In this document: positions 10,465-48,302 of the stretch, piece after piece | Position numbering within the stretch: position 1 is the first letter of the stretch | Layout: every line of letters starts with the position of its first letter | Assembly (NCBI RefSeq): GCF_000420325.1 | Contig: NZ_ATUS01000001.1 | Coordinates: 500,463 to 564,462, forward strand | DNA: 64,000 nt | Direction of reading: 5' to 3' | Source of the DNA: Spongiibacter tropicus DSM 19543 | Lineage (GTDB): Bacteria; Pseudomonadota; Gammaproteobacteria; Pseudomonadales; Spongiibacteraceae | Made by a program: the position numbers and the translations under genes | Notes under the pieces: generated by a model | The model's input: the letters and a program-made list of their open reading frames with translations, nothing else | The model's database searches: none | Told to the model about the DNA's origin: nothing

Positions 10465-10589
10465 GTTCACTCTCCCGCCGTCATCGTTATTGTTTTGCGC
10501 ACCGCGGTCGACGCGACGCGGCTTTAAACAGCCAGGCAATTATGCTGTAGTAAGCGCCAACGAGATTTGACATTTTCGGACATCACGCC

Positions 10590-33729: not shown

Positions 33730-34347
33730 TTAGGGATACGCTGCAGTAAACCCCGCCGCAATAAAGCGGCGCAGCTCCGCAACCAGCGTCTCCAGTTCTT
33801 CGCCCGGCCCTGGGTCACTCAAATGGCTGGGGAAATTCACACACGCCAAGGTGTTCACCATTGTCTCCAGCGCAAAGCCATAGCGCAGGCGCAGCACCGA
33901 CGGTGGCAGTGCGGGCAGTACCTTGGCGAAGGCCGCCATCAATTCAGCCACCGGTTCGCGAAACTCCGCTATCAGCGCGTAGTCGGCCATGTCCCCCTGC
34001 TCAGCGTACAGGCGAGCCACCACCCGCACATAGTCCCGCCCGCCTTCCGGGTCTTCGAGCAATATTTCGCTTAGCGGCGCCGTCAAGACCCCGACCAAAG
34101 CAGGCACATCCGGCGCCGACGATGCCATTGCGGCGTTCAGACGCTGTTGCTGTGATTCGCGCGAGCGCAGACGGCTGCGCAACACTGCATCAAGCAGCGC
34201 ATTTTTGTTTTTGAAATGGTAGTGCACCGCTGCGGCACTGAGCCCTGCCGCTTCATTGATTTCCCGCAGCGACACCGACAGCCCCCGTCGAGCGAACAAC
34301 GCCGTAGCGACGGCAACAATATGCTCCCGCGAGGATTTCTTCGCCAT
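33730..34347 (-). CDS. TetR-family regulator
   Basis: The 205-residue protein has the N-terminal TetR helix-turn-helix (about 8-55: AVATALFARRGLSVSLREIN, AGLSAAAVHYHFKNKNALLD) and a helical ligand-binding C-terminal domain. The start is ATG 34347, preceded by GGGAGTGGAAC. It is divergent from the flavin dehydrogenase gene, and a perfect palindrome lies in the 110-bp space. It probably represses itself and that gene until a ligand, perhaps the substrate or a CoA ester, is bound. Confidence 0.92.
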   Translation of the reverse strand: MAKKSSREHIVAVATALFARRGLSVSLREINEAAGLSAAAVHYHFKNKNALLDAVLRSRLRSRESQQQRLNAAMASSAPDVPALVGVLTAPLSEILLEDPEGGRDYVRVVARLYAEQGDMADYALIAEFREPVAELMAAFAKVLPALPPSVLRLRYGFALETMVNTLACVNFPSHLSDPGPGEELETLVAELRRFIAAGFTAAYP

Positions 34348-34398
34348 GTTCCACTCCCAGAGGACAGGCAACCATTACCTGCCCATATCGACACCCAT

Positions 34399-34457: not shown

Positions 34458-35960
34458 ATGCAGCCCCCATCCAGCTTTACTGCACCCATTCGCTCCGTTG
34501 ACAGCGTAAAGCACTTCACCGCCACCACCGACGTTCTGATTTGCGGCTACGGTGGCGCCGGAGCCGCCGCCGCCCTAGAGGCAGCCCGTGCCGGCGCCCG
34601 CGTGACCGTTCTGGAGAGAGCCAGCGCAGGTGGCGGTTCCACGGCCATGTCGAGCTGTGAAATGTACCTGGGCGGCAGCGGCGGCACCGCACTGCAGCGC
34701 GAGCTCGGGCTGGAGGACAGCACCGAGAATATGCTCGCCTACTTACACGAAGCACTTGGCCCCTTCGGCGACGAGGAGAAAATTCGTTGCTACGCCGAGG
34801 GAGCCGCCGCCCACTTTGACTGGGTGGAGTCACTGGGCGTGAGCTACAAGCGGGCCGTCTTCACCGAACGCACGGTTGTCCCGCTGAGTGATGAGTCGCT
34901 GCTGTATACCGGCAATGAAAAATCTCACCCTTTCAACCGCGTAGCCCAGCCCGTTCCGAGGGGCCATGTACCCTCAAAAGAAGGTGACGAAGGCGGCAAG
35001 ATTTTCATGGATGCCATTATGCAACGGGTTGCCGAAGCCGGGGTGACAGTGATGAACGACACCCGAGTAGTGGCCTTGCTGGCCAACGACCACGGCGCCA
35101 TTTGCGGCGTGATCGCCAAGCAGAATAACCAGGAAATCGCGCTGCGCGCTGAACGCGGGGTTATTTTGACAACGGGTGGCTTTGTGATGAACGAGGCCAT
35201 GACCCGACAATACCTGCCGGAGATACACCAGTATGCGGTGCCTTACGGTAATACCTACGACATGGGCGACGGCATTGTGCTGGGGCTGGCCGCAGGCGGA
35301 CAGGCCATTAACATGGATCAGGCTTTTATGTCGTTTCCACTGTACCCGCCCGCCAAAATGACCTTCGGTATTTTGCTGAATCAACAGGGTCAGCGCTATA
35401 TCAACGAGGATGCTTACCTTGCGCGACTGGCGTATTACTCCTGCCAGCAACCAGAGCAGAAGTTTTATCTGCTGGTGCAGGATGAAGATTACGAGCCCTC
35501 ACATTACCTCGAGCGCGCTCCGATCATCGCCAGTGGCGACAGCATTGCCGAGCTGGCCGCCGAGGCACCTTTCCCAGCCGGGGTCCTTGAGCAGACGGTC
35601 AGCTATTTCAACGAGCACGCGGGCAATGGCCGAGATCCACTGTTCCATAAAACAGCAGAGTGGCTGAAGCCGTTGAGTAAACCGCCGTTTGCCCTGCTTG
35701 AGTACTCCGCCGATGCGATGAAGGCGATTATCATGCCCGGCACTACCGGGCCGTTGATTTTTACGCTCGGCGGCCTTCACACCAATGTCGATGGTGAGGT
35801 ACTCAACATGAATAATCAGGCGATTCCCGGCCTCTTTGCCGCCGGGCGGGCGACGGCCGGCTTACCCCGCACCGCCAAAGGCTACGCCAGCGGAATGTCG
35901 GTGGGCGATGCGACTTTCTTTGGCCGTCGAGCCGGACGCCGCGCGGCGACTCAAGCCTGA
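34458..35960 (+). CDS. FAD-dependent oxidoreductase of the 3-ketosteroid dehydrogenase/fumarate reductase type
   Basis: The 500-residue protein starts with an FAD dinucleotide fold (DVLICGYGGAGAAAALEAAR, ending in a VTVLER strand) and ends with a second FAD-contact region (IPGLFAAGRATAGLPRTAKG followed by YASGMSVGDATFFGRRAG). This is the layout of the fumarate reductase flavoprotein/3-ketosteroid delta-1-dehydrogenase superfamily. It may desaturate a ring ketone or reduce an enone. The tyrosines and final GxG needed for true KstD activity cannot be assigned with certainty, so the substrate is open. Position beside a TetR gene and a P450/acyl-CoA cluster supports a role in steroid- or terpenoid-like compound breakdown. 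Confidence 0.82.
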   Translation: MQPPSSFTAPIRSVDSVKHFTATTDVLICGYGGAGAAAALEAARAGARVTVLERASAGGGSTAMSSCEMYLGGSGGTALQRELGLEDSTENMLAYLHEALGPFGDEEKIRCYAEGAAAHFDWVESLGVSYKRAVFTERTVVPLSDESLLYTGNEKSHPFNRVAQPVPRGHVPSKEGDEGGKIFMDAIMQRVAEAGVTVMNDTRVVALLANDHGAICGVIAKQNNQEIALRAERGVILTTGGFVMNEAMTRQYLPEIHQYAVPYGNTYDMGDGIVLGLAAGGQAINMDQAFMSFPLYPPAKMTFGILLNQQGQRYINEDAYLARLAYYSCQQPEQKFYLLVQDEDYEPSHYLERAPIIASGDSIAELAAEAPFPAGVLEQTVSYFNEHAGNGRDPLFHKTAEWLKPLSKPPFALLEYSADAMKAIIMPGTTGPLIFTLGGLHTNVDGEVLNMNNQAIPGLFAAGRATAGLPRTAKGYASGMSVGDATFFGRRAGRRAATQA

Positions 35961-36599
35961 TTAACCGGCAGCAGGTAACTGCTGTCGAAATCCATCAATC
36001 AGGTAAGCCAAACTGATATCGATGGGCTCTTCACGCACCACCGCTTCCAGCACCGGCGCCACATACAGGCGCTGGCTGCTGGGGTCCTGAAGATAGGAAT
36101 GGGTAACGGGCGACAGGGATTCCTCTGCGCTCTCGGCAGTCTCAACGTAGAGCGTCGCGCGCAGGCAGACCGCCCCCACCACCAGTTGAATCATCGCCAT
36201 GTAGCAGCGCACGGCCTGATCGGCACTGAACCCGGCATCCTGCATTTTGCCAATCACCCGGTCCGTGACTTTCAGCGCATTGCTGCCCAGGGGCATGGTA
36301 CCCAGCAGCGGCACCCACCGCATTTCGCCGCTCAGCGCGCGATACATATTGCGGGCTAATTGCTCCAGCCAGCCATCCCAGGCCAGCGATTCATCGGGCA
36401 GCACCTCCGCGCGCTCGATAAAGGTATCGAACGCCGCCGCCAACAGCGCATCTTTATTATTAAAATGCTTGTACATGGCCATAGCCGACACGCCCAACTG
36501 CGCAGCCACTTTGCGCATGGACAGCCGCTCCACCCCCACCTCGGCAATGACGCTCAGGGCAGCATCTACAAAGCGTTGCCGGTTAAGACTGACTGTCAT
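35961..36599 (-). CDS. TetR-family regulator
   Basis: The 212-residue protein has the TetR helix-turn-helix (FVDAALSVIAEVGVERLSMR, QLGVSAMAMYKHFNNKDALL) and a helical C-terminal domain. The start ATG 36599 follows AGGATCACGCA; the frame extends 12 codons further without conserved sequence. Its stop abuts the stop of the convergent flavin dehydrogenase gene with no spacer. It lies 119 bp downstream of the P450 gene on the same strand, and may bind the palindrome in front of that gene (38134-38148). Confidence 0.9.
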   Translation of the reverse strand: MTVSLNRQRFVDAALSVIAEVGVERLSMRKVAAQLGVSAMAMYKHFNNKDALLAAAFDTFIERAEVLPDESLAWDGWLEQLARNMYRALSGEMRWVPLLGTMPLGSNALKVTDRVIGKMQDAGFSADQAVRCYMAMIQLVVGAVCLRATLYVETAESAEESLSPVTHSYLQDPSSQRLYVAPVLEAVVREEPIDISLAYLIDGFRQQLPAAG

Positions 36600-36718
36600 T
36601 GCGTGATCCTGATTGGCGCAGGTACATCGGGGCAACTGCAGTAAAAAAATCGCCGTGCGGCGGGCACGTCTGTGCGGCTATTAAATCAGTCCGGACAGGT
36701 CTGCCGCAATGACGTCAC

Positions 36719-38089
36719 TCATCGGGCCGCAAAGCGGATGGGCAAACATTGCAGCGTACGGGCAAACATCGAGGCCACAAACGGGGCTGGGCCATCCAAC
36801 GACAGTTCTCGCGTTCGCAGCAGAAATTCACGCAGCACGATACGGATCTCCGTGCGCGCCAGCTCTCGGCCGATACAGGCGTGGATACCGTGCCCGAAGG
36901 TCAGGTGCTTTTTACCATTGTGGCGGTCAAGGCGAATCTCATCGGGCTGCTCAAACACGCGCTCATCGCGGTTGCCGGACGCCCACATCAGGAAGAGACG
37001 GCTGTCAGCGGGCAGCGTCTGTCCATGCAGGGTGACGGGCTCCTTCGTCCAGCGGAAGTGGCCCTGAAAAGCCGATTCAAGACGAAAGACTTCTTCGATA
37101 AACGCGGGCAACAAACCATCGATATCATCGCGAATTTGCGCTTGCAGGGCGGGATTTTCAATCAGCAGTTTGAGGGCATTGCCCATGCTGGTGGCGGAAG
37201 AATCGCTGCCCGCCAAGAGCAACTGCATAATCCCCGACACCGCGGTATTGGCATCCATGTGGCCCTCATTCACGCCGCGCACAAATACGCCGCTCAAATC
37301 ATCGCGGGGGGCACGTCTGGCACGTATAAACTGCTGCCAGCAGTAGCGATAGAAAACCAGCATTTCGGCGCGGCTGCGCGCCAGTTCGCGGCGACTGGCA
37401 ATACCACTCTGGGTGGCGATGCCGTGAACGCACCAGGTTTTGATTTTCTCATAATCCGCTTCCGGGAAGCCGAGCATGCGAATAATCAGCCGCATCGGTA
37501 ATGCCCAGGCAAATTCGCGCATGAACTCCACGCGGCCGCTGGGCAGAAAACGCGCCATCAGTTCGCGGCAAAGCTGCTCCACCTCCGACTCCATCGCCTT
37601 GACGATCCGCGAGTTGAGCCCCTTGTGCGCGACTTTGCGTTCAGCGGTATGCACCGGCGGATCAGACAGCGCCAGTACGTCACCCGGCGCGATGCCCATG
37701 CGCTCCAGAGGAGCCAGTTTCTGCGCTTCACGAATCACACTGTGGCCGAGCTTCAGACCGGCAACAACACCCTGGTGGGTCGATGAAAACCGTTCCGTAT
37801 CGCGACTGACAGCGACAATATCCTCGTAGCGGGAAATGCAGTAAATCCCGTTTTTCAACAGGTATACCGGATAGTCATCCCGAAGCATCCGGTAGAAGGC
37901 ATAGGGGTTCTGAAAACAGCGATTCTGCAACGGCGCAAAATCTTCTGGGTGCCGTGGCACACTCAGCTTTGCAGCCACCTCCGTGTCCTCCTGAAGATCA
38001 TCGGGCTCGCGGCGCGCTGACAATCGCAATAGCTGCTCAATACCGTGGGACATCGCCACACGACGGCTGTGGTAAACAAGATCTCGCAT
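36719..38089 (-). CDS. Cytochrome P450
   Basis: The 456-residue soluble P450 uses reductant and oxygen to hydroxylate or epoxidise a hydrophobic substrate. The I-helix oxygen motif is AGSDSSAT (293-300), with Ser in place of the usual Thr at 297. The ExxR motif is E333-V-F-R336, and the heme loop FGHGIHACIG (398-407) places the ligand at Cys405. The start ATG 38089 follows GGGAGGCCGAT. No ferredoxin or reductase gene adjoins it. Divergence from an epoxide hydrolase gene suggests an epoxidation-hydrolysis pair; steroid or terpenoid oxidation like CYP125/CYP142 is an alternative. Confidence 0.95.
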   Translation of the reverse strand: MRDLVYHSRRVAMSHGIEQLLRLSARREPDDLQEDTEVAAKLSVPRHPEDFAPLQNRCFQNPYAFYRMLRDDYPVYLLKNGIYCISRYEDIVAVSRDTERFSSTHQGVVAGLKLGHSVIREAQKLAPLERMGIAPGDVLALSDPPVHTAERKVAHKGLNSRIVKAMESEVEQLCRELMARFLPSGRVEFMREFAWALPMRLIIRMLGFPEADYEKIKTWCVHGIATQSGIASRRELARSRAEMLVFYRYCWQQFIRARRAPRDDLSGVFVRGVNEGHMDANTAVSGIMQLLLAGSDSSATSMGNALKLLIENPALQAQIRDDIDGLLPAFIEEVFRLESAFQGHFRWTKEPVTLHGQTLPADSRLFLMWASGNRDERVFEQPDEIRLDRHNGKKHLTFGHGIHACIGRELARTEIRIVLREFLLRTRELSLDGPAPFVASMFARTLQCLPIRFAAR

Positions 38090-38133
38090 ATCGGCCTCCC
38101 GACGTTTCGATGCTTGAGAACTTACGCCAACTG

Positions 38134-38148
38134 GTTTACATTGTAAAC
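38134..38148. promoter_or_regulatory. Perfect palindrome between P450 and epoxide hydrolase genes, probable operator
   Basis: GTTTACA-T-TGTAAAC is a perfect 7-base palindrome with a single-base centre. It lies in the 120-bp divergent space between the P450 and epoxide hydrolase genes, and overlaps the -35 element proposed for the latter, as a repressor site would. A nearby TetR protein (35961-36599) is the likely binder. Confidence 0.68.
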
Positions 38149-38169
38149 TCATTTGAATGACACTGTAAT
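38141..38169 (+). promoter_or_regulatory. Sigma-70-type promoter for the epoxide hydrolase gene
   Basis: TTGTAA (38141-38146) and TGTAAT (38164-38169) are separated by exactly 17 bp, and both match four to five of six consensus positions. The start of transcription would be near 38176, about 34 bp before the ATG at 38210. Confidence 0.5.
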
Positions 38170-38209
38170 CTTCCAAGCTGCCAGCGGCCACCTGTACGGA
38201 GTTTCTTCG

Positions 38210-38575
38210 ATGCCAGATAACGATCACCTAATCCGCCGCTTCATGCTGGCCTGGAGCGATCGAGACGTCGACCGCATCATGGCGTTTTTCAGCGCCGACG
38301 CGGAGTACTGCAATATTCCCCTGGGGCCGGCGCACAGAGGAAAGGCCGACATCCGCGCGTTTATTGACGGGTTTATCGCTGCCGCGACGCATATCGACTT
38401 TCAAATAAAACAGCAGCTCAGTGACGGAGAGCTGGTAATGAACGAGCGCGTGGACGTGCTGCATATCAGCGGCAGTGAAGTGAACTTGCCGGTAATGGGC
38501 GTCTTCAGGCTTCGCGAGGGGAAAATCTGCGAGTGGCGGGACTACTTCGACATGGCCGCCTTTTCGGCGGCCTGA
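38210..38575 (+). CDS. Limonene-1,2-epoxide hydrolase-family protein
   Basis: The 121-residue cone-shaped-fold enzyme adds water to an epoxide in one step. The family active site is complete: Tyr33 and Asn35 in AEYCNIP position the water, and Arg80, Asp82 (NERVDVL) with Asp111 (EWRDYFD) form the Asp-Arg-Asp set. Its length is slightly less than the Rhodococcus enzyme (149). A mycobacterial homologue of this fold accepts bulky, sterol-like epoxides. The ATG 38210 is chosen from the family N-terminus; an earlier frame start has no support. It is divergent from the P450. A GGCCGCC/GGCGGCC hairpin sits at its 3' end (38554-38572). Confidence 0.9.
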   Translation: MPDNDHLIRRFMLAWSDRDVDRIMAFFSADAEYCNIPLGPAHRGKADIRAFIDGFIAAATHIDFQIKQQLSDGELVMNERVDVLHISGSEVNLPVMGVFRLREGKICEWRDYFDMAAFSAA

Positions 38576-38595
38576 ATGTCGGCGTTACGGCAGCG

Positions 38596-39456
38596 TCATT
38601 GAATAAAACGTGCCGCCACATCGTCCATATACGCTTTTTTCTGCGCCAGAGAAGCGTCTGGGCCGATGCCAAACAGAAAGGGATAGGAAACCGTGGCCGT
38701 CACCCCCAATGCCGACATTTCAGTGACGGCATCAGGCGTCAGCGGCTCAGTGAGCGGTGCGATCACCTCGTAGCCCTCGGTGGGCAAACCCGCCTCACGA
38801 CGTGCTTGCAATAGCGCAGGAACCTGAGTCCACAGCTCAGCCAAGGTATTCCCCGGTCCATACCAGCCGTCGCAGGAACGCACCGCGCGCCGCAGCGCCG
38901 CGCCCGAGTGCCCCCCGCCAATCAAGGGGACCGGCTTGCTCGGGTAGGGGCGAATATTCACGTCATCTAATTGAAAATGCTCACCGTGGAACGAGACCTC
39001 CTCGCCACGCCAAAGCGCTTGCATAATCGTCAACATTTCGTCCAGCCGACCACCACGGCGATGAAAGTCCACCCCAAACTGCTCGAACTCTTCCTGTAGC
39101 CAGCCCGCGCCAAAACCCAGCATAAATCGATTGTCACTGAGCACCGCCAGTGTCGCCATATTCTTGGCGGCCTCAATCGGGTGGCGCAGTGGCAGTACAT
39201 AGATACCGGTGAGCATTTTCAGACGCTGGGTGACGGATGCCATCGCGGCAAAACTGATCAGTGGATCGGGAAACGCCATATCGGCATTTTGAATGGAGCG
39301 ACCGTCTTCCGAGTAAAAATAATGGGAACGACTGTGCTTGGGATAATAGATATGCTCGGCGAGGATCACGCCCTCGAAGCCGAGCTTTTCGGCGTGGCGC
39401 GCTACCTCAACCAGATGTTCGGTTTCGCACCAGCTGATGACCTGCCAGAATTTCAT
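38596..39456 (-). CDS. Luciferase-like (LLM class) F420-type oxidoreductase
   Basis: The 286-residue protein folds as a bacterial-luciferase-like TIM barrel, with VARHAEKLGFEGVILAEH near the N-terminus, LPLRHPIEAAKNMATLAVLS, and GFGAGWLQEEFEQFGVDF. The pattern is that of the group annotated as F420-dependent, which includes mycobacterial Rv3520c of the cholesterol region. Whether it uses F420 or FMN in this organism is not shown. AGGGAGGGCAG lies before the ATG. It converges on the epoxide hydrolase gene, 20 bp away. Confidence 0.85.
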   Translation of the reverse strand: MKFWQVISWCETEHLVEVARHAEKLGFEGVILAEHIYYPKHSRSHYFYSEDGRSIQNADMAFPDPLISFAAMASVTQRLKMLTGIYVLPLRHPIEAAKNMATLAVLSDNRFMLGFGAGWLQEEFEQFGVDFHRRGGRLDEMLTIMQALWRGEEVSFHGEHFQLDDVNIRPYPSKPVPLIGGGHSGAALRRAVRSCDGWYGPGNTLAELWTQVPALLQARREAGLPTEGYEVIAPLTEPLTPDAVTEMSALGVTATVSYPFLFGIGPDASLAQKKAYMDDVAARFIQ

Positions 39457-39551
39457 GTACTGCCCTCCCTGTCACGGAGCCATCATTGTCGATGGCCCCG
39501 GCAGCAGCCGCTATCGGCTGAACGGAGGTCGCCTGAACAGACGAGGCGGGA

Positions 39552-40319
39552 TTATTTGCGGAACTGGGAAAAGTCCGGGGCACGTTTTTCGAGAATCGCC
39601 ATCACCGCTTCAATGTTCTCTGGCTTACCCGCCAGTTTTTCCATCCCCGCCTGCTCGGCATCCATCGCGGCGTGAATTGCCTTGCGATGAACGTCGCGCA
39701 TCAGGCGCTTGGTTTCCACCAGCGAGCTGACCGGCCACTGGGCAATTTCCCGCGCCTTTGCCATCGCCTTGTCCAGCAACTCCTCATCGCTGAATACGCC
39801 GGTGGCAATACCAACGCTGAGTGCTTTGCCGGCATCTAACCACTCCGAGGTATACATCAGCTCCGCGGCACGGCGCGCGCCAATAACGGCCTGCAGTTGG
39901 TAGCTGCTGCCCCACTCCGGCACCAGACCCAAGGAGGTGAAAGGGAAGCGCATGCGCAGGGATTCACCTACGTAAACCACATCGGTATGCAGTAGCAGCG
40001 TTGCACCACCGCCGACAGCAACACCTTTTGCTGCTGACACCACGGGCTTATCAAAATTCACCAACTTCCGCGCGCAGGCATTAAAGGGGTGCTCGCCCTC
40101 TGACTCGCCAAAATCAGCAAGGTCCACACCGCTGGAGAAATCCTTGCCTGCACCGGTCACCACCACACACGCCACAGCGGGATTCTCACCGGCAGCCTCA
40201 ATGGCATCGCCAAAGGCCTGCCACTGTTCATTACTGAAAGCGTTTTTGCGCTGGGGGCGGTTCAGCGTCAGCAGCAGAACCCCGTGGTCATCCAGCTCCT
40301 GCAGTACAGTTTCGCTCAT
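39552..40319 (-). CDS. Enoyl-CoA hydratase/isomerase
   Basis: The 255-residue crotonase has the N-terminal LTLNRPQRKNAFS motif and oxyanion-hole segments ACVVVTGAGKDFSSGVDLAD and KGVAVGGGATLLLH. The usual first catalytic glutamate position shows EWGSSYQL (E in LVPEWG). It is likely to hydrate or isomerise an enoyl-CoA in side-chain beta-oxidation. It is on the same strand as, and close to, the nitroreductase and CaiB genes. Confidence 0.88.
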   Translation of the reverse strand: MSETVLQELDDHGVLLLTLNRPQRKNAFSNEQWQAFGDAIEAAGENPAVACVVVTGAGKDFSSGVDLADFGESEGEHPFNACARKLVNFDKPVVSAAKGVAVGGGATLLLHTDVVYVGESLRMRFPFTSLGLVPEWGSSYQLQAVIGARRAAELMYTSEWLDAGKALSVGIATGVFSDEELLDKAMAKAREIAQWPVSSLVETKRLMRDVHRKAIHAAMDAEQAGMEKLAGKPENIEAVMAILEKRAPDFSQFRK

Positions 40320-40358
40320 TATTTTTCTCGCTAAATAAATTGGCCGTAGGCTTGCGGA

Positions 40359-41027
40359 TTAATCGTAAAAACGGATGCACTCGCCCAGCGGAGCGCGCTG
40401 GGTGCGACAACGATTGGCGGGATCTTCGGCATCTTCGTAACCGAAGGAAATACCAAACAGCAGTTTGTTCTCTGACGGAATATCCAACACTTCACGCACC
40501 AGATCGGCATTGAAGCTCAGCGCAGTCTGGGGACAACTTGCCAAGCCCTCGGCGGTAAGGCTGAGCATCAGATTCTGGGCGAACATGCCGCAATCGGCGG
40601 CTTCTCGCAGCCCGAAGGGTTCCGGCAAAAAGATAAAAGCCACATGCGGCGCGCCGAAGAATTCAAAGTTACGCATGAACTGGGCATTGCGACCGACCTT
40701 GTCTTCCCGGGCAATACCCATTGCGGCGTAGAGGTCGGCGGCGGCCTGGTACTGCCGCTCCTTGTACACCCCGGCATACTTGCCGTCATAGGGAAAATCC
40801 ATCGTCCACTGACCGGATGCGAAGGCGTCTGGGATACGCTGACGCAAGGTTTCCAGCTTATCACCGCTGACCACTGCACATTCCCAAGGCTGGGTATTAC
40901 AGTTCGACGGCGCCGTTGAGGCGGTCTCAAAAACGCGATTGAGCAGGGTTTGCTCAACCGGCTTGGAGATAAAACCGCGAACAGATCGGCGCTGTCTGGC
41001 AATGTCGGCAAAAGCGGTAGAGGTCAT
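40359..41027 (-). CDS. Nitroreductase-family FMN oxidoreductase
   Basis: The 222-residue protein has the nitroreductase pattern: RRSVRGFISKPVEQTLLNR at the start, ASTAPSNCNTQPWECAVVSG for FMN, and late LPEPFGLREAADCGMFAQNL and LASCPQTALSF. Members reduce nitro groups, quinones, enones or flavin with NAD(P)H. The ATG follows AGGAGAACTTC. In this island it may reduce a ring or enone intermediate or supply flavin reduction; none is proven. Confidence 0.88.
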   Translation of the reverse strand: MTSTAFADIARQRRSVRGFISKPVEQTLLNRVFETASTAPSNCNTQPWECAVVSGDKLETLRQRIPDAFASGQWTMDFPYDGKYAGVYKERQYQAAADLYAAMGIAREDKVGRNAQFMRNFEFFGAPHVAFIFLPEPFGLREAADCGMFAQNLMLSLTAEGLASCPQTALSFNADLVREVLDIPSENKLLFGISFGYEDAEDPANRCRTQRAPLGECIRFYD

Positions 41028-41043
41028 GAAGTTCTCCTGAAGA

Positions 41044-42192
41044 TCATTCTGATGCGGTTACGGCGCCGCTGCCCAGCAGCGATTCGCACTGCTGGGCACT
41101 GTAACCCAGCTCAGACAACAGGGCGAGGCTGTCTTTGCCCTCCACTACCGGCGGGTTCTGAATAGCCCCCGGGGTGCGCGAGAAGCGCGGCGCCACTGCG
41201 GTCTGCACACGTCCCTCGTCCGTCAGCAGATTGCGACGATGCTGATTGTGGGGATGGTTGGCGGCCTCGCGCATCGCTAGCACGGGAGCCGCGCAGGCAT
41301 CACTGCCGTCGAAGATGCTCATCCACTCATCCAGTGTTTTCTCGCTCACCCGCTCGGCAATCCGCTCACGTTGCGCCGGCCACTCGGCCTTATTGAGCTG
41401 CACGCTGTAGTCCGTGCCGCCAAAGTCCAAGCCCAGCTTTTCGAGCAACTCCGCATAGAACTGCGGTTCAATTGCGCCGAAGGAAATATAGCGGCCATCT
41501 TTGCAAGCGTAGTTGCGGTAGAACGGCGCGCCGCCATCCAGAATATTCTGTTCGCGGGCATCGTCCCAAAAACCGACGTTCAACAAGCCGTGTACCGTGC
41601 TCAACAGCGACGCCGCACCGTCGCAAATCGCGGCGTCGATCACTTGCCCTTTGCCGGACTGGGTGCGCTCGTGCAGCGCCGCCAGAATGCCCATAATCAG
41701 AAACAGCGAGCCACCACCCAAGTCGCCAATGACGTTCAGCGGTGTAGGTGGCGGCTGATCCGCCTCCCCCATAGCCCCGAGCATGCCGGTGATGGCAATA
41801 TAGTTAATGTCGTGACCGGCGGTTTTCGCCAGCGGACCGTCCTGCCCCCAACCGGTCATGCGACCGTAGATCAAGCCGGGGTTGCTCTCCAGACAATGAT
41901 CCGGCCCCAGCCCCAGTTTCTCCATGACGCCGGGGCGGAAGCCCTCAACCAGAATATCAGCGCGATCAATCAGCTTCTTCGCCACAGTCAGACCGTCATC
42001 CGATTTCAGGTTGAGCACAATCGAGCGGCGACCACGCACCGTGGCATCACCGGCCTGGCCGCCCATACCGCTGACACCGCGTTCAATGCGAATCACTTCC
42101 GCACCGAGATCGGACAACAGCATGCAAGCATAGGGACCGGGGCCGATACCGGCCATCTCCACAACGCGCAAACCGCTTAGAGGACCAGACAT
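41044..42192 (-). CDS. CaiB/BaiF family, alpha-methylacyl-CoA racemase-like
   Basis: The 382-residue class III CoA-transferase-fold protein starts with PLSGLRVVEMAGIGPGPYAC and contains VLNLKSDDGL. The catalytic aspartate is in TAGHDINYIA. The GPGPYACMLLSDLGAEVIRIE pattern and the length are those of alpha-methylacyl-CoA racemase, which inverts the 2-methyl branch so beta-oxidation of steroid or isoprenoid side chains can proceed. CoA transfer is the alternative. The start ATG 42192 follows CGGAGAAACGCT. It is 16 bp upstream of the nitroreductase gene. Confidence 0.9.
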   Translation of the reverse strand: MSGPLSGLRVVEMAGIGPGPYACMLLSDLGAEVIRIERGVSGMGGQAGDATVRGRRSIVLNLKSDDGLTVAKKLIDRADILVEGFRPGVMEKLGLGPDHCLESNPGLIYGRMTGWGQDGPLAKTAGHDINYIAITGMLGAMGEADQPPPTPLNVIGDLGGGSLFLIMGILAALHERTQSGKGQVIDAAICDGAASLLSTVHGLLNVGFWDDAREQNILDGGAPFYRNYACKDGRYISFGAIEPQFYAELLEKLGLDFGGTDYSVQLNKAEWPAQRERIAERVSEKTLDEWMSIFDGSDACAAPVLAMREAANHPHNQHRRNLLTDEGRVQTAVAPRFSRTPGAIQNPPVVEGKDSLALLSELGYSAQQCESLLGSGAVTASE

Positions 42193-42267
42193 AGCGTTTC
42201 TCCGTGGACGGGAACAGATGACGCGGACACCGGAACCCGGTGCCAACGCCTGGGAGGGGATCGGCGT

Positions 42268-43089
42268 TTATTCGCCGGTGAACTGCGCGGGGCGTTTTTC
42301 TTTGAAAGCACGCATGCCTTCTTTGGCATCCTTGGAGGCAAACACCGGGCCGGCCAGCTCGTCAGATTTGAGCATGGCTTCATCTTCTGACAGGTGCTCG
42401 GTGTGCTCACGCAGAGAGCGGGTTACCGCTTTCACCGCCAAGGGGCCATTGGCACAGATTTTCTCGGCAATTTTCTTGGCTTCGTTCAGGGTTTCGCCCT
42501 TGGGCACAATGCGGTTGATCAGACCAAAATCCAGTGCCTGCTGTGCCGTCACGTGCTCACCCAGCAACAGAATTTCAGCGGCGATGCAGTAGGGAATCTG
42601 TTTACGCAGACGAATGGTAGAACCCGACATGGGATACAGGCCGCGAGCCACCTCGGTAACACCAAAGATGGCATCTTCAGCCGCGACGCGGATGTCAGTG
42701 CCTTGCAGAATTTCTGTCCCACCGGCCAGCGCGTAGCCCTCAACGGCCAGAATCAGCGGCTTGCAGGGGCGGTTGTCGCGGAGCAGAGCCTGCCAGTGAA
42801 TGTTTGGCACCTGACCCATCAGCTCCATGAATTCCTCGGTGCTGCGCTGCTCGCCATCGGCGCCTGCTTTCAGGTCCATACCGGCGCAGAAGGTGTCACC
42901 ATTTGCGGTGAGGATGGCACAGCGCAAATCATCGTCTTCGTCCAGCAAACGCCAGGCTTTATACAGACCCAGCAGCATTTCCGGGCTGAAGGCATTCTTT
43001 GCCTCGGGGCGGTTCAGGGTCACGATCAGCACGTGGCCGTCTTTTTCAACGATACAGTTCTTAGTGCTGATAGGCAGTTCAGTCGCCAT
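42268..43089 (-). CDS. Enoyl-CoA hydratase (crotonase family)
   Basis: The 273-residue protein has LIVTLNRPEAKNAFSPEML, an oxyanion-hole loop NGDTFCAGMDLKAG, and VEGYALAGGTEILQGTDI; VARGLYPMSGSTIRL follows at the active-site position. Length and the GMDLK motif resemble the EchA19 type of mycobacterial steroid side-chain degradation, but many crotonases look alike. The start ATG 43089 follows GGAGCATCCC. A CCGCT/AGCGG inverted repeat (43131-43148) lies in its upstream region. Confidence 0.9.
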   Translation of the reverse strand: MATELPISTKNCIVEKDGHVLIVTLNRPEAKNAFSPEMLLGLYKAWRLLDEDDDLRCAILTANGDTFCAGMDLKAGADGEQRSTEEFMELMGQVPNIHWQALLRDNRPCKPLILAVEGYALAGGTEILQGTDIRVAAEDAIFGVTEVARGLYPMSGSTIRLRKQIPYCIAAEILLLGEHVTAQQALDFGLINRIVPKGETLNEAKKIAEKICANGPLAVKAVTRSLREHTEHLSEDEAMLKSDELAGPVFASKDAKEGMRAFKEKRPAQFTGE

Positions 43090-43233
43090 GGGATGCTCCA
43101 TTTCTTGCTAATGGCCGTTTAATGAAATAACCGCTTATGACATAGCGGCGTTGCGAATATCGATGTTCTTAACTTGCCGTGTGTTGCTGGCAGACGGCTA
43201 GCAGCGCGACGCCGCTACTCCGCCATGACTACG

Positions 43234-43258
43234 AAAACGGGGCGGCATTGCCGCCCCG
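43234..43258 (-). terminator. Rho-independent terminator after the acyl-CoA synthetase gene
   Basis: On the minus strand CGGGGCGGCA and TGCCGCCCCG form a 10-bp GC-rich hairpin followed at once by TTTT. It sits six bases beyond the synthetase stop codon. Confidence 0.9.
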
Positions 43259-43263
43259 GAGAA

Positions 43264-44895
43264 TCAGGAAACCTGTCCCTCACCACTCAGCGCAAAGGCT
43301 TTAGCCGTTTTGTAGTCAGGCTTGCCACTCGGCGCACGGGGAATTTCCGCAATCAGATGCACTTCACGAGGGACCTTGTAGCCCGCCACATGCTGACGGC
43401 AGTGCTCCTGAACATTCTTCAGGTCCAGCGCTACGCCATCACGCGCTTGGATAACCGCGCTCACACGGCTGCCCCAACGCTCGTCGGGCACACCGACGAC
43501 GAGGGCATCAAAAATGCCGTCGTGAGCCTTCAGTGCATCTTCGACTTCTTCCGGGAAGATTTTCTCACCACCACTGTTGATACAGTTCGAGCCGCGACCG
43601 AACACCGTGATAGAGCCATCTTCTTCCAGTTTGGCCGCGTCACCGGTCAGCAACCAGGTTTTGCCATCCACTTCCACGAAGGTCTTGGCAGTTTTCTCAG
43701 GGTCGTTGTAATAGCCCATGGGAATGTAGCCAGCGCGAGCAAAAATACCGGTCTCACCCAGCTCTGCGTGACGACGCGGTTGGTCGTCTTCGTCAATGAT
43801 CACGTCCATATAGTCTGTACGCGAAACATTGCCGAGGCCGGTCTGGTTCTTGCGGCTGCCGTTATCCATCCCCATCTGACCGCCCTCGGATGAACCGAAG
43901 GCATTGGTGACAAAACAGTTGGGGAAGTGTTTCTTAAACGCGTCCTGCTTGGCGTCAGAGAAAATCGCGCCACCGGAGCCTACGTTGAAGACAGCTGACA
44001 GATCCCAGCGGTCGGGATTGGCGTCCAGAGCGTCCAGCAGCGGAATCGCCATGGCATCACCGACAATCTGAATCGCGTTGACCTTCTCGTCAGCAACGAT
44101 TTGCCATACCTGCTCACCGTCAAAAGAACGGTTATGGTTCAGGACCAGCTTGTTGCCCGCAAGCAATTGAATACAGGCGTACCACCATGATGCACCGTGC
44201 ATCAGCGGCGCCAGCGCAATCCCGGTCAGCGGGTGCTCAGTGACGCGGCTGCTGATGTCTTCAGGCTTTTCACAGGGGCCGTCGGGAGAGAAGTGGCCGC
44301 CGCCACCCATCGCCGCAAAGAAAACATTTTTGTGCGGCCACATAACGCCCTTGGGCATACCCGTAGTGCCGCCGGTGTACAAGATGAAGTAGTCGTCGTC
44401 TGCTCGCTCACCGAAATCGCGACTGTCATCCTGCGTTTGCTGAGCCTCTTTGTAATCTACCGAGCCAATGGCGCCGAGATCAGCACCACTGCCATCATCA
44501 ACCGATACAAAGACTTTCAGCTTTTTCGCCGCTTCGCGCACTTCAGCAATATGGGGTGCGAATTCACGGTGGTGAATACAGGCCACCATGTCGGCATTGT
44601 CGAAGATATAGAGCAGTTCGTCTTTAACGTAACGGTAGTTAACGTTGATGGGCACTGCGCGAACTTTGAAGCAGGCCAACATGGCCTCCAGATATTCGCT
44701 GCAGTTGTACATGTACAGGCCAACGTGATCGCCCGCCTTGACGCCTTGACTGGCAAGGTAGTGGGCCATGCGATTTGCGCCTTTCTCCAGATCGGCATAA
44801 GTGGAGCGGCTATCGCCACAGATCAACGCTTCGCGGCTCGGTACTTTGTCAGCGACGGCTTCAAACAAATCCGCAAGATTAAAATGCATGCTCAT
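43264..44895 (-). CDS. Acyl-CoA synthetase, FadD19/FadD17-like AMP-forming ligase
   Basis: The 543-residue enzyme activates a carboxylic acid to its CoA ester through an acyl-adenylate. The AMP-binding P-loop YTGGTTGMPKGVMWPH, motif SSEGGQMG, the hinge region LTGDAAKLEEDGSITVFGR and the C-terminal lysine motif SGKPDYK are all present. Start (LADLFEAVADKVPSREALIC) and length are close to mycobacterial FadD19 (548), which activates the C8 steroid side chain. It has its own 206-bp upstream region and a strong terminator, so it is probably a single-gene unit. The substrate is inferred only from context. Confidence 0.92.
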   Translation of the reverse strand: MSMHFNLADLFEAVADKVPSREALICGDSRSTYADLEKGANRMAHYLASQGVKAGDHVGLYMYNCSEYLEAMLACFKVRAVPINVNYRYVKDELLYIFDNADMVACIHHREFAPHIAEVREAAKKLKVFVSVDDGSGADLGAIGSVDYKEAQQTQDDSRDFGERADDDYFILYTGGTTGMPKGVMWPHKNVFFAAMGGGGHFSPDGPCEKPEDISSRVTEHPLTGIALAPLMHGASWWYACIQLLAGNKLVLNHNRSFDGEQVWQIVADEKVNAIQIVGDAMAIPLLDALDANPDRWDLSAVFNVGSGGAIFSDAKQDAFKKHFPNCFVTNAFGSSEGGQMGMDNGSRKNQTGLGNVSRTDYMDVIIDEDDQPRRHAELGETGIFARAGYIPMGYYNDPEKTAKTFVEVDGKTWLLTGDAAKLEEDGSITVFGRGSNCINSGGEKIFPEEVEDALKAHDGIFDALVVGVPDERWGSRVSAVIQARDGVALDLKNVQEHCRQHVAGYKVPREVHLIAEIPRAPSGKPDYKTAKAFALSGEGQVS

Positions 44896-44997
44896 AGTGG
44901 GTCCCTGTTAGATCGATACCGCCCTGTCGCGGCATCTAAAATTGAATTCTTATCACTTCTTGTATTGCGACATTTCTTGTCATTATTACTGCGCAAA

Positions 44998-45026
44998 GGG
45001 CTGTCCGCTGATCCAGCGAACAGCCC
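44998..45026 (-). terminator. Hairpin terminator after the DUF35-thiolase operon
   Basis: GGGCTGTTCGCTG and CAGCGGACAGCCC on the minus strand form a 13-bp stem (one G-U pair) around GAT, followed by a short TTT. It lies about 75 bp beyond the last thiolase stop. The short T-run makes termination likely but not certain. Confidence 0.65.
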
Positions 45027-45101
45027 AGAACATTAACATGCGGCCGAAATGCGGCCATCCTCCCAAGGGACGAGAATGGGAGAATGGCGCATGACGATTT
45101 G

Positions 45102-46265
45102 TTAATGCTTCTCGCTGCTGACCACCCACATTGAGTAGAACTGGGCACCACCACCGTAGGCGTGACCCAGGGCGGTTTTAGCGCCGTCTACCTGATGGTC
45201 GCCAGCCGCGCCGCGTACCTGCTGCGCCGCCTCGGCAAAACGAATCATGCCGGAAGCCCCAATGGGGTTGGAGCACAGTACACCACCGGAACAGTTCCAG
45301 GGGATGTCACCGCCTTCTATCAGGGACGTAGCACCGCTCATGGTCAGCTCCCAGCCCTTGCCTTCTTCAGCAAAGCCGAGATTTTCCAGCCACATGGGCT
45401 CGTACCAGGAGAACGGCACATAGACTTCGGCACAGTCGAGGTCTTTGCGCGGATTGCTGATACCGGCCTGCTTGTACACATCTTTGGCACAGTCGCGGCC
45501 AGCTTGAGGGTTAACCTGCTCGCGACCCGCATACATGGTGGGCTCTGAGCGCATCGCTGCACCGCGAATCCACGCCGGTTTGCCGGGTGACTGAGCCGCC
45601 AACTCTTCGTTGGCAATGACCATGGCACAGGCACCATCAGACGATGGGCAAGCTTCCAGGAAGCGCAGCGGCTCCCACAGCATGGGGCTGTCTTCAACTT
45701 CTTTCATGTTGATTTCGGGAAGCTGCAAATGCGCCAGCGGATTCTTCGCACCGTGCAGGCGGTCTTTCACTGCCACCTTGATCCCCGCGTCATAGGGCGC
45801 TTTGGAACGGCGCATATACTCGCGAATGATCGGCGCGAAGTAACCACCCGCACCGGCATTGAGGTGTGGGGAAAATGGCTGAGGGTTAGACAGCGCCCAC
45901 ATGGCGTTGGATTCTGACTGCTTCTCGAAAGAGACGGTCAAAATGCGCTTGAACACACCACTCTGAACATAGGAGGCCGCCACGATCGCGGTTGAGCCAC
46001 CCACCGAGCCGGCCGTGTGAACACGCAGCATGGGTTTGCCGTTACAGCCCAGTGCATCGGTCAGATACAGCTCGGGCATGATCACGCCTTCAAACATATC
46101 GGGGGCTTTACCCAGGATGACCGCATCGATTTCATCCCAGCCCAAACCGGCATCATTCAGGGCATTTTGCGCAGCTTCGCGCACCAGGCCGGCGATAGAT
46201 ACGTCGGCACGCTTGGTTTTGTATTTGGTCTGACCGACGCCGACCACAGCAGCTAATTGAGCCAT
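45102..46265 (-). CDS. Thiolase-fold protein, Ltp3-like, lacking the canonical catalytic residues
   Basis: The 387-residue protein has the thiolase fold (AAVVGVGQTKY at the start, PIGASG near the end) and matches lipid-transfer/SCP-x thiolase homologues such as mycobacterial Ltp3 (about 394). At the place of the nucleophilic cysteine it reads RVHTAGSVGGST (81-92) without cysteine. The GHP histidine is replaced in CSNPIGASG, and the CxGGG cysteine in LGHAYGGG. It is therefore more likely a retro-aldolase or partner subunit, as in the Ltp2-DUF35 complex, than a thiolase. The ATG 46265 overlaps the preceding stop in TAATG. Confidence 0.85.
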   Translation of the reverse strand: MAQLAAVVGVGQTKYKTKRADVSIAGLVREAAQNALNDAGLGWDEIDAVILGKAPDMFEGVIMPELYLTDALGCNGKPMLRVHTAGSVGGSTAIVAASYVQSGVFKRILTVSFEKQSESNAMWALSNPQPFSPHLNAGAGGYFAPIIREYMRRSKAPYDAGIKVAVKDRLHGAKNPLAHLQLPEINMKEVEDSPMLWEPLRFLEACPSSDGACAMVIANEELAAQSPGKPAWIRGAAMRSEPTMYAGREQVNPQAGRDCAKDVYKQAGISNPRKDLDCAEVYVPFSWYEPMWLENLGFAEEGKGWELTMSGATSLIEGGDIPWNCSGGVLCSNPIGASGMIRFAEAAQQVRGAAGDHQVDGAKTALGHAYGGGAQFYSMWVVSSEKH

Positions 46266-47323
46266 TATTGGGCCTCCAGTACAGTTACCAGGTTCTGTTG
46301 CAGACACGGACCAGAAGTCGCATGCGCCACACCGCGCTTGCCTTCGCCGTTGATCAAACGCATGGCGACTTCGCCGATGCGAGACAGACCAGAGGCCATC
46401 ATCAGATTTCCGGCCAACACACCACCAGACTGGTTGACTTTAGTGCTGTCGCCTAGGCCAAGTGCCCGACGCAGAATAATTTCCTGATGGCTGAACGGCG
46501 CATAGATTTCAGCGATATCCACATCACCATTGCCCAGGCCAGCGGCCTCAGCAGCTTGCTTGGTAGATACCGATTGAGTCAGGTCGCGCGAACCAATGTG
46601 ATGAGTCTCGATACGGTGGTCGATACCCTTGATTACCGCGTAGGGCTTGCCCCACTCTTTCGCCTTCTCGACAGTACAGATCACCATGGCGCAGGCACCG
46701 TCGGAAATCGGGCAGCAGTCGTGGCGACGCAGGGGCGCCTCGTAAACCGGCTCTTCCAGCAGTTGCTCGGCAGAGACATCGCCCTTCAACTGTGCGTGGG
46801 GATTGTTCATGGCGTTGCGACGGGAGTTGGCAACCACCTCGGCCATGTCTTTCTCAGTGATCAGCCCCTGATCCAGCATGGTCCGCGCTTGCATCGCTGC
46901 AAAAGCGATGGTGTCTACCCACAATGGCGCCAGGTAGTAGGGATCCAGTTGCTGAGACAGAACGATAGGGAGTTCACCGGGAGACGATTTACCGAAACCG
47001 TAAATCAGTGCCGATTCGGCCTGTCCCATCTGGATTTTCAGCCAGGATTCGTACAGCGCCCAGGCAGCATCCATTTCAACGTGAGATTCTTTGATCGGCG
47101 GTACGGCACCCAGAGCATCGACACCTGCCACAAAGGCAAACGCGGCGCCCTGCTGGTAGTCGCAGCTACCCGAGCAAGTGAAATCTACATCCTGTGCACT
47201 CTGCAAACCGGCCTGTTTATAGACTTCGGTGAGCACGGGCATGATCAGCTCAACTTCGTTGCGCGCACCGGCGTCACGCATACAGTCGGACTGGGCAAAA
47301 GCTACAATCGCTACATCGCGCAT
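46265..47323 (-). CDS. Thiolase-fold protein, Ltp4-like, lacking the canonical catalytic residues
   Basis: The 352-residue protein corresponds in length and order to mycobacterial Ltp4 (about 354). It has VAIVAFAQSDC, a TCSGSCDYQQG segment in the early core (49-59), and a late NQSGGVLAGNLMMASG segment. By alignment in the head, the cysteine-loop region reads SHVEMDAAWAL and the GHPxGxSG histidine is absent (AGNLMMASG). It probably pairs with the downstream thiolase-like protein and the upstream DUF35 protein to cleave a side chain by retro-aldol chemistry. It is one base from the DUF35 gene, so tight coupling is clear. Confidence 0.83.
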   Translation of the reverse strand: MRDVAIVAFAQSDCMRDAGARNEVELIMPVLTEVYKQAGLQSAQDVDFTCSGSCDYQQGAAFAFVAGVDALGAVPPIKESHVEMDAAWALYESWLKIQMGQAESALIYGFGKSSPGELPIVLSQQLDPYYLAPLWVDTIAFAAMQARTMLDQGLITEKDMAEVVANSRRNAMNNPHAQLKGDVSAEQLLEEPVYEAPLRRHDCCPISDGACAMVICTVEKAKEWGKPYAVIKGIDHRIETHHIGSRDLTQSVSTKQAAEAAGLGNGDVDIAEIYAPFSHQEIILRRALGLGDSTKVNQSGGVLAGNLMMASGLSRIGEVAMRLINGEGKRGVAHATSGPCLQQNLVTVLEAQ

Positions 47324-47324
47324 C

Positions 47325-48302
47325 TTAACGGCCCTCTTTTTTCAGTTTGCCAATTTCTTCCACCGGAACATCGGGCTCGTCGATGGGCTTGAAGTACTGG
47401 ATATTCTCCATGGCGTGCGTCCACTCCTCTTCGGGCTTCCACACTGCCTCAACACGCATACCAATGCGTACGTCTTCGTTCTTACACTCGCTCAGCAGGT
47501 GCAGGAAGCTGATGTTGGCACCATCGAGAACCAGGTTCGCAATCACGTATGGCGGCTTGATCGGGTTGTTCGGAATCGGAATGTAAACGATGGTGAACGA
47601 CTCAACGGTCGCCTTGTTACCCAACTCAACTTCGTCAGTCGTTGCCACACCGCAGGCCGCACAGCTTCCGCGGGGCGGAATGTAAACGTTGGAGCAAGAA
47701 GGACAGCGCTGACCTACCAGCTTGCCTTGCTTCAGCTTGACCAGGTAGCGCGCTGTCGCTGCACCGGCGGTGAAGTTATAAGTGAGGTAGCTGGGAGCAT
47801 CGATACCAGTAACCGGCTCGTCACTTTCATTGGGCTGATAGTCTTCCACCAAGGTGGTCGCTTCGGGAACGAAGCCGTTGATGTCGCTAATCTGGCCTTG
47901 CGTCTGCGCAGCCCAGCGAACTTTAACGCGCATACCCGTGCTCATGGCGTCGATGCTTTCTGCATCCACCCAGTGCAGCATGGGCGTATCGGCACCATCC
48001 AGTTGAATCAGTGCCCAGGCGAAAGGCCGGTCTGAGGGGTGTGCTTTGCGGGGTTCAGTAACCCAGGCCCAGGTTTTAACAACACCGGTATCCGCGACAT
48101 CGACAAACTCGCTCAGTGCTTCCGCACTGACGGGGTCGAACTCAACGGGCGGCATCAGCACCTTGCCATCGCTGCCCTTGATGCCGACCATTTTGCGGTC
48201 GCGCAGGGCGGTGAAAAACTTCCCGACAACGGGACCTGTCGAACGGGTATAGGTATACCCTAAGGTAAAGGCCTGACTTAGAATTTCAGCCGATGAAGAC
48301 AT
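47325..48302 (-). CDS. Double DUF35 (zinc ribbon-OB fold) protein, Rv3521-like
   Basis: The 325-residue product contains two DUF35 units. The second (about 180-310) keeps a zinc ribbon with C200, C203, C214 and C217 followed by an OB fold (PPYVIANLVLDG, VRIGMRVEAVW). The first (about 20-150) has the OB fold (FAWALIQLDG, MRVKVRWA) but has lost the ribbon cysteines. DUF35 proteins bind thiolase-fold enzymes and deliver or hold CoA substrates, as in ChsH2-Ltp2. The order DUF35, Ltp4-like, Ltp3-like equals mycobacterial Rv3521-Rv3522-Rv3523. AAGGAGAG precedes the ATG. Upstream, 48303-48501 holds no gene; a promoter was not identified. Confidence 0.88.
   Translation of the reverse strand: MSSSAEILSQAFTLGYTYTRSTGPVVGKFFTALRDRKMVGIKGSDGKVLMPPVEFDPVSAEALSEFVDVADTGVVKTWAWVTEPRKAHPSDRPFAWALIQLDGADTPMLHWVDAESIDAMSTGMRVKVRWAAQTQGQISDINGFVPEATTLVEDYQPNESDEPVTGIDAPSYLTYNFTAGAATARYLVKLKQGKLVGQRCPSCSNVYIPPRGSCAACGVATTDEVELGNKATVESFTIVYIPIPNNPIKPPYVIANLVLDGANISFLHLLSECKNEDVRIGMRVEAVWKPEEEWTHAMENIQYFKPIDEPDVPVEEIGKLKKEGR

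Follow-up and report, generated by a model that had tools for sequence, protein, structure and literature searches.

What would a marine gammaproteobacterium do with a set of genes resembling the cholesterol side-chain region of mycobacteria? The question is raised by positions 34458-48302 of the window analysed here, a stretch of 64,000 nucleotides from Spongiibacter tropicus DSM 19543 (C1:500463-564462; genome of 3.95 Mb in 7 contigs, 100% complete). A preliminary description of this catabolic island had listed a P450, an F420-type oxidoreductase, enoyl-CoA hydratases, a CaiB protein resembling alpha-methylacyl-CoA racemase (AMACR), a FadD19-like ligase and a DUF35-Ltp4-Ltp3 trio, and all of these gene types are really present (Table 1). 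Our analysis points to the core of the island, minus strand, 48302-39552, as probably a module for the side chain of C24-branched (plant and algal) sterols, acting beside an aerobic 9,10-seco-type steroid pathway. The idea of a steroid side-chain island in a gammaproteobacterium is thus supported, and the published function of FadD19, Ltp3 and Ltp4 narrows it from cholesterol generally to C24-branched sterols.

The core is composed of DUF35, Ltp4, Ltp3, FadD19, EchA19-like, AMACR, nitroreductase and EchB genes, and it recurs, complete or partial, among marine Gammaproteobacteria. The nitroreductase gene, located between AMACR and EchB, was absent from the gene list of the preliminary description. 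Synteny was analysed in 80 named loci, the best 80 of at least 534 confirmed ones, of which 49 belong to Pseudomonadota and 31 to other groups according to their titles (identity thresholds were ours; distant taxa, including mycobacteria, fall outside this set), and in the corresponding stretches of 20 relatives. The order DUF35-Ltp4-Ltp3 was kept in all loci with the three genes, 47 of 47 in Pseudomonadota and 30 of 30 elsewhere; a member of the trio was not detected at our thresholds in 3 of the 80 loci. This grouping is not due to chance. In Pseudomonadota the trio is commonly followed by FadD19, EchA19, nitroreductase and EchB (23, 22, 20 and 19, respectively, of the 28 loci with at least 6 kb downstream), the nitroreductase gene being directly followed by EchB in 18 of these 28, and some relatives have the trio alone or another order. 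None of these four genes, nor AMACR, was found downstream of the trio in 27 other loci, mostly from Actinomycetota; FadD19 (22 of 31 non-Pseudomonadota loci, mostly on the opposite strand) and EchA19 (20 of 31) are upstream. The nitroreductase-EchB pair is new, and was found only in proteobacterial loci. In 15 of the 45 Pseudomonadota loci, DUF35 has an HsaC-like gene upstream at a distance of at most 2.5 kb, which directly links the module to ring cleavage. In 6 of the 31 non-Pseudomonadota loci (L146, L152, L158, L163, L165, L174) an HsaC-like gene was observed 6-10 kb from the trio, accompanied by HsaA-like genes in at least three of the six; the actinobacterial trio is also linked to ring genes. 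In Endozoicomonas sp. OPT23, a member of an animal-associated genus, and in an Oceanospirillales relative (L128 and L127), AMACR is upstream of the trio; in the former, FadD19, EchA19 and EchB are downstream.

The proposed parallel with the mycobacterial region Rv3515c-Rv3523 holds for part of the island. Published statements are cited here from the passages of each source that bear on these genes; in the gene table of PMC6429209, ltp4 and ltp3 are Rv3522 and Rv3523, next to Rv3521. Ligase, hydratase, DUF35, Ltp4 and Ltp3 are homologous and the order of the trio is identical; from the gene order after DUF35, we assign the 352-aa protein to the Ltp4 type and the 401-aa protein to the Ltp3 type. 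In contrast, the ligase and hydratase genes of S. tropicus follow the trio in one direction, whereas the actinobacterial ones are upstream, the counterparts of cyp142 and Rv3520c are lacking (see below), and AMACR, nitroreductase and EchB are extra.

Ltp3 and Ltp4 belong to the thiolase superfamily, and their nucleophile positions were mapped on Cys-bearing relatives. The thiolase Cys is replaced by Glu83 in 81 of 81 Ltp4 rows and by Gly100 in 74 of 74 Ltp3 rows; Ltp3 also has Tyr296 and Asn347 (74 of 74 rows) at the His positions of SCP2-type thiolases. Loss of the nucleophile in both proteins makes ordinary thiolysis unlikely. EchA19 keeps each of the two catalytic Glu positions of hydratases in 47 of 48 rows. 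Ltp2 lacks the thiolase Cys as well, and a DUF35 protein beside Cys-less thiolase-superfamily proteins is shared with the ChsH1-ChsH2-Ltp2 and Shy-Sal systems; by analogy with Ltp2 and Sal (PMC11321319), Ltp3-Ltp4 may act in a retro-aldol reaction. The S. tropicus set differs from these systems by its two unlike thiolase-like subunits, of 352 and 401 aa, and by a double DUF35 protein without MaoC hydratase domain. The DUF35 protein has two OB_ChsH2_C domains and one rubredoxin-like zinc ribbon (Pfam); its gene gives two genome matches within one frame, and corresponds to two smaller open reading frames in several relatives. Hydration would here probably be performed by a crotonase, unlike in the Shy-Sal and ChsH complexes. 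Since DUF35 plus thiolase-like aldolase chemistry is common to Shy-Sal (PMC11321319), the core could be a comparable module for the bile-acid (cholate) side chain; we regard this as very improbable, as the DUF35 protein gave no match to a MaoC domain at E<=0.001 and in view of the co-occurrence data below.

The choice of C24-branched sterols comes from published mutants. In M. smegmatis, a fadD19 mutant lost the use of beta-sitosterol and kept that of cholesterol, and loss of echA19 slowed beta-sitosterol use; Ltp3 and Ltp4 of Rhodococcus are cited in the same source as required for branched side chains only and dispensable for cholesterol (PMC6273163). In a review (PMC6678751), Ltp3-Ltp4 is presented as a heteromeric aldol-lyase that acts on campesterol and sitosterol. 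In M. neoaurum deletions, atf1, and not ltp3 or ltp4, was required for the C22-23 aldol step (PMC10398937), which fits a separate role of ltp3/ltp4. Sterolibacterium denitrificans uses beta-sitosterol and stigmasterol (PMC11061730), and three Sterolibacterium metagenome-assembled genomes (MAGs) among the named loci have the trio. Alternatively, FadD19, EchA19 and Ltp3/Ltp4 could form a general cholesterol module acting on the unbranched C27 chain, branch specificity having been lost or never present. Spongiibacteraceae and Halieaceae isolates use cholesterol for growth (PMC5790920), and co-occurrence with CYP125-like and HsaC-like genes would suit any alkyl sterol; conversely, the dispensability of fadD19, ltp3 and ltp4 for cholesterol in the actinobacteria mentioned above (PMC6273163) argues against such a module, and unbranched chains can be handled by a thiolase, the genome having 20 Thiolase_C matches, one of which is the Ltp4-type protein. 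We consider this alternative rather unlikely.

For a C24-branched sterol, the following sequence of reactions can be proposed. A CYP125-like P450 encoded outside the island would oxidise C26, FadD19 would form the CoA thioester, AMACR would set the stereochemistry at the 25-methyl and an acyl-CoA dehydrogenase from elsewhere would yield the enoyl-CoA, which EchA19 would hydrate to a tertiary 24-alcohol. Such an alcohol is not oxidisable to a ketone, so that ordinary thiolysis would be blocked, and the Ltp3-Ltp4-DUF35 complex would break the C-C bond by retro-aldol chemistry. The nitroreductase-EchB pair would probably reduce and isomerise unsaturated side-chain thioesters (delta22 or delta24(28)), and the remaining chain and rings would pass to the KshA-, HsaA-, HsaC- and HsaD-like enzymes. 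Gene content, synteny, co-occurrence, thiolase Cys loss and crotonase Glu patterns are what was observed; that branched sterols require FadD19, Ltp3 and Ltp4 comes from published experiments with actinobacteria, and every reaction in S. tropicus is inferred.

Ring-cleavage genes had been described as missing from the window, and none was found in it. They are present elsewhere on the same contig, where a search of the genome, as proposed in the preliminary description, gave KshA-, HsaA-, HsaC-, HsaD- and HsaE/F/G-like genes, the main sets lying 43-75 kb past the window end; this check thus favours that description. Two KshA-type genes (C1:609970 and 632338) match PF19298 with 244.8 and 237.9 bits (cut-off 23.3), a family that also takes other oxygenases, with 7 matches in the genome, all above cut-off. 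HsaC-like genes are at C1:608990, 631284 and 819866. HsaA, HsaC or HsaD was the best or second-best family for each gene, and equivalog cut-offs were missed (HsaC-like, 235.8 and 274.9 bits, and two HsaA-like, 380.6 and 373.6 bits, for cut-offs of 450; HsaD-like, 167.1 bits for 400), so that these genes are called here only '-like'. The HsaF/HsaG-type aldolase (TIGR03217, 562 bits) and acetaldehyde dehydrogenase (TIGR03215, 469 bits) are over their cut-offs and the HsaE-like hydratase scores 395 bits with TIGR03220 (cut-off 408.8), the HsaE/F/G-type models being general to meta-cleavage pathways.

By Pfam, 17 matches correspond to 15 P450 genes in the genome, two of these genes being matched twice. 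The P450 at C1:2346342-2347586 scores 358.6 bits with ancestral CYP125, 264 with CYP125 and 235 with CYP124, and its best matches carry the name CYP125 or steroid C26-monooxygenase. A second genuine CYP125-like candidate is encoded at C1:1151 kb (ancestral CYP125 386 bits, CYP125 256, CYP124 254), with CYP124, CYP268 and many others close (63 sequences at E<=1e-50, compared with 21 for the first candidate). A P450 at C1:1297k, beside DUF35 and a lipid-transfer-like gene, was considered as a sterol C26 hydroxylase and rejected, as it is CYP101-like. By motif, only 4 P450s were found in the named loci, and a P450 ranking against them was dropped; two of the four, in L113 and L122 (the latter Halieaceae), led to the CYP125-like gene. 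As CYP124, a hydroxylase of methyl-branched lipids, ranks next after CYP125 for both candidates, and as AMACR, ligase and crotonases are of general use for methyl-branched acids, the core might serve non-steroid branched isoprenoids (phytol, pristane, monoterpenoid acids). This is improbable: HsaC-like ring-cleavage genes are linked to the module and co-occur with it, and in the literature examined the roles of Ltp3/Ltp4 are confined to sterol use.

Co-occurrence was measured in 244 genomes of the order, with E-value cut-offs of our choosing (Ltp4 1e-20, HsaC 1e-50, CYP125-like 1e-90, the latter with the C1:2346342-2347586 protein, the first candidate only, as query). Ltp4-type genes were found in 41 of 244 genomes, HsaC-like genes in 59 and both in 37 (Fisher p 7e-24 by genome); by genus, HsaC was present in 17 of the 19 genera with Ltp4 compared with 13 of 93 others (Fisher p 3e-10). 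Both tests assume independence of genomes or genera, which does not hold; the p-values are inflated by shared ancestry, and this weakens the case to that extent. The CYP125-like gene was present in 38 of 244 genomes and in 34 of the 41 Ltp4 genomes. Among the 59 HsaC genomes, it was present in 31 of 37 with Ltp4 and in 2 of 22 without. This contrast ties the module to alkyl side chains and not to steroids generally, and sets likely alkyl-sterol users apart from other degraders of steroids. It also argues against a bile-acid module, since a CYP125-like gene should not be needed for bile acids: the co-occurrence is strong, and the gene was not found in 20 of the 22 HsaC genomes lacking Ltp4. In a class-wide survey, Ltp4 was present in 2 of 369 genomes, including S. 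tropicus, and HsaC in 5; the other Ltp4 genome (G403) has HsaC, this sample containing too few Ltp4 genomes for a test of its own. Two genomes of the same genus (G023, G212) have neither Ltp4 nor HsaC.

Several results weigh against a C24-branched sterol module, in addition to the equivalog cut-offs missed by the HsaA-, HsaC- and HsaD-like genes. First, the published scheme for branched sterols requires a carboxylase (PMC6678751), and none is encoded inside the module; of four carboxyltransferase matches in the genome, the nearest, probably AccD, is some 19 kb away from the core. A scan of part of the flanking proteins in relatives (10 + 9) gave no carboxylase beside the core and one acyl-CoA dehydrogenase (L067). 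Second, M. tuberculosis retains the gene set with cholesterol as its usual sterol, so that the set could serve unbranched sterols. Third, the EchA19-like hydratase does not reach the EchA19 equivalog NF051848 (334 bits, cut-off 400), and only 7 of the 28 Pseudomonadota loci with at least 6 kb downstream have AMACR after the trio. Fourth, the existence of two CYP125-like candidates renders the acting P450 ambiguous. Finally, co-occurrence has exceptions: at our thresholds HsaC was not found in four Ltp4 genomes (G031, G051, G092, G120) nor the CYP125-like gene in seven (G007, G055, G088, G092, G116, G166, G192), and four CYP125-like genomes lack Ltp4 (G023, G045, G059, G115).

Acyl-CoA dehydrogenases are encoded elsewhere: one of 601 aa is in the window (21039-22844), and an adjacent pair at C3:146473-150771 (L095:6473-10771) is followed by DUF35 and by a lipid-transfer protein of the PRK06059 type in which the thiolase Cys is retained, a candidate further side-chain locus.

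EchB has Thr107 and Phe127 at the hydratase Glu positions, both invariant, like Glu135, in 22 rows. Pro134-Glu135 and Ser138-Ser139 are invariant, an isomerase-like pattern; the position of this Glu is similar to that of the catalytic Glu in ECI2-type isomerases. The predicted structure (pLDDT 91) is nearest to 5ve2, titled hydratase/isomerase (Z 36.8, 36% identity); the enoyl-CoA isomerase BoECI (6lvo) is joint second (Z 34.7, root mean square deviation 1.3 over 237, 35% identity) and human ECI2 ranks 11 (Z about 32, about 28% identity). Hydratase-titled chains rank between BoECI and ECI2, and all 1000 aligned chains reach Z 8 (VIA-align, Foldseek), so that structure alone does not decide between hydratase and isomerase. 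Algal sterols often have delta22 or delta24(28) double bonds. As unsaturated acyl-CoAs need a reductase-isomerase pair, we tentatively suggest that nitroreductase and EchB are an auxiliary couple of dienoyl/enoyl-CoA reductase and enoyl-CoA isomerase for unsaturated C24-branched side chains, which would make the proteobacterial module a dedicated algal-sterol system. Brassicasterol, stigmasterol, fucosterol and 24-methylenecholesterol would then be conceivable, equally tentative, substrates. If this is true, at least one protein of the nitroreductase family works on sterol acyl-CoAs.

Whether the island was transferred or independently assembled had been left as two alternatives, and neither applies simply. 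The trio is homologous and in the same order in both phyla, whereas ligase and hydratase are placed differently. In an unrooted Ltp4 tree (81 rows from the most similar loci only, quick method), one branch splits Pseudomonadota from Actinomycetota (SH-aLRT 95), the exceptions being one Myxococcota-titled row with Pseudomonadota, and L145 and L170, whose title or parsing is doubtful, with Actinomycetota. The tree argues against recent acquisition from actinobacteria of the sampled kinds, mycobacteria being outside the sample, and would be compatible with an old exchange. Ltp4 has a patchy distribution in the order (41 of 244 genomes). The closest named relatives at the Ltp4-type protein are Spongiibacter marinus DSM 17750 (91%) and then Zhongshania (84-85%). 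A FadD19 tree was dropped, with L178, L177, L137 and L128 long or misplaced and two Sterolibacterium rows on a branch of length 10, probably non-orthologous. A trio-bearing MAG titled Klebsiella pneumoniae (L142) falls among MAGs of Pseudomonadales and Gammaproteobacteria; its title is very likely wrong.

Plants and most algae produce branched sterols, the marine degraders of which are poorly known. In the passages cited, Bergstrand et al. (2016) found no evidence of proteobacterial cholesterol catabolism by the 9,10-seco route and no CYP125 or CYP142 orthologues there (PMC4810484), Holert et al. later isolated Spongiibacteraceae and Halieaceae on cholesterol, without mention of side-chain genes (PMC5790920), and CYP125 was reported in one alphaproteobacterium (PMC8197338). 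Our searches of the openly licensed PMC literature, which leaves out most subscription journals, gave no account of a gammaproteobacterial module of this kind. Together with the CYP125-like gene, the module offers a gene marker by which alkyl-sterol use can be traced among marine Gammaproteobacteria, and gives a short list of mutants worth making.

Table 1. Genes of the S. tropicus island and the adjacent regulator (window positions).
Feature	Position	Strand	Basis
Double DUF35, Rv3521-type partner subunit	47325..48302	-	PF01796 in two stretches, PF12172
Ltp4-type, 352 aa, thiolase superfamily	46265..47323	-	NF005924/PRK07937, 494 bits (cut-off 419)
Ltp3-type, 401 aa, thiolase superfamily	45102..46307	-	NF006180/PRK08313, 660 bits (cut-off 514)
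FadD19-type acyl-CoA ligase	43264..44895	-	NF005863/PRK07798, 694 bits (cut-off 543)
EchA19-like enoyl-CoA hydratase (crotonase)	42268..43101	-	PRK07799, 341 bits (cut-off 316)
Alpha-methylacyl-CoA racemase (MCR/AMACR), CaiB-like	41044..42246	-	400 bits to MCR 1x74, overall similarity
Nitroreductase-family flavoprotein, EchB partner	40359..41027	-	PF00881; NfnB 2wzv, 171 bits; synteny
EchB, crotonase, isomerase-like	39552..40319	-	Below every listed NCBIfam cut-off; residues, model
LLM-class F420-type oxidoreductase	38596..39456	-	TIGR03619
Cytochrome P450	36719..38227	-	CYP144 is the nearest solved structure
TetR regulator	35961..36635	-	Family models
Kst4D-like 3-ketosteroid delta4-(5alpha)-dehydrogenase, FAD protein	34458..35960	+	357 bits to 4at0, overall similarity
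Further TetR regulator, transcribed divergently to the Kst4D-like gene	33730..34371	-	Domain match

The PRK07798 subfamily, to which the ligase is assigned, is taken here to include FadD19. Two genes of the island did not bear out their presumed mycobacterial counterparts. The P450, whose real start is probably downstream of the GTG, scores higher with CYP144 (207.5 bits) than with CYP142 (123.5 bits), and its identification as CYP142 was rejected. The LLM-class protein passes the Rv2161c-type model TIGR03619 (221.5 bits, cut-off 166.9) and fails the Rv3520c-type model TIGR03559 (47.8 bits, cut-off 335). The flavoprotein, described earlier as a KstD type elsewhere in the window, belongs to the island itself, and its nearest relative is Kst4D (4at0, 357 bits, compared with 101 bits for KstD 4c3x). 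No match to the LLM protein was found at E<=1e-10 in the corresponding stretches of the 20 relatives, and orthologues of the kst4D, TetR and P450 genes were in place in 2 of the 20 (G063 and G148); this near-absence marks the four genes as apparent local additions to the core. In favour of the proposed parallel, 5 of the 80 named loci have LLM-class homologues, 34-36% identical, a short way downstream of the trio (L156, L163, L165, L174, L177), all actinobacterial (four Saccharopolyspora and one Rhodococcus).

Genes for CofC, the F420 ligase CofE and a protein resembling F420-dependent NADP oxidoreductases were observed at C1:622397-625613, between two HsaC/KshA sets (individual positions L040:17935-18651, C1:624145-624804 and L041:390-1151), and CofE was present in 11 of 12 relatives searched, G212 being the exception. 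S. tropicus therefore probably makes F420, and the LLM protein may truly use it.

Two other groups of genes were observed in the window. The TonB receptor mentioned in the preliminary description was found at 6463-8916; it has a plug domain and is grouped (6463-11606) with an AraC regulator and a protein of the fatty acid hydroxylase superfamily (PF04116), possibly a further locus of lipid uptake and oxidation. At 31387-33645, a 752-aa open reading frame has a PCMT-type methyltransferase domain before a type II/IV secretion ATPase (MshEN and T2SSE), an unusual fusion.

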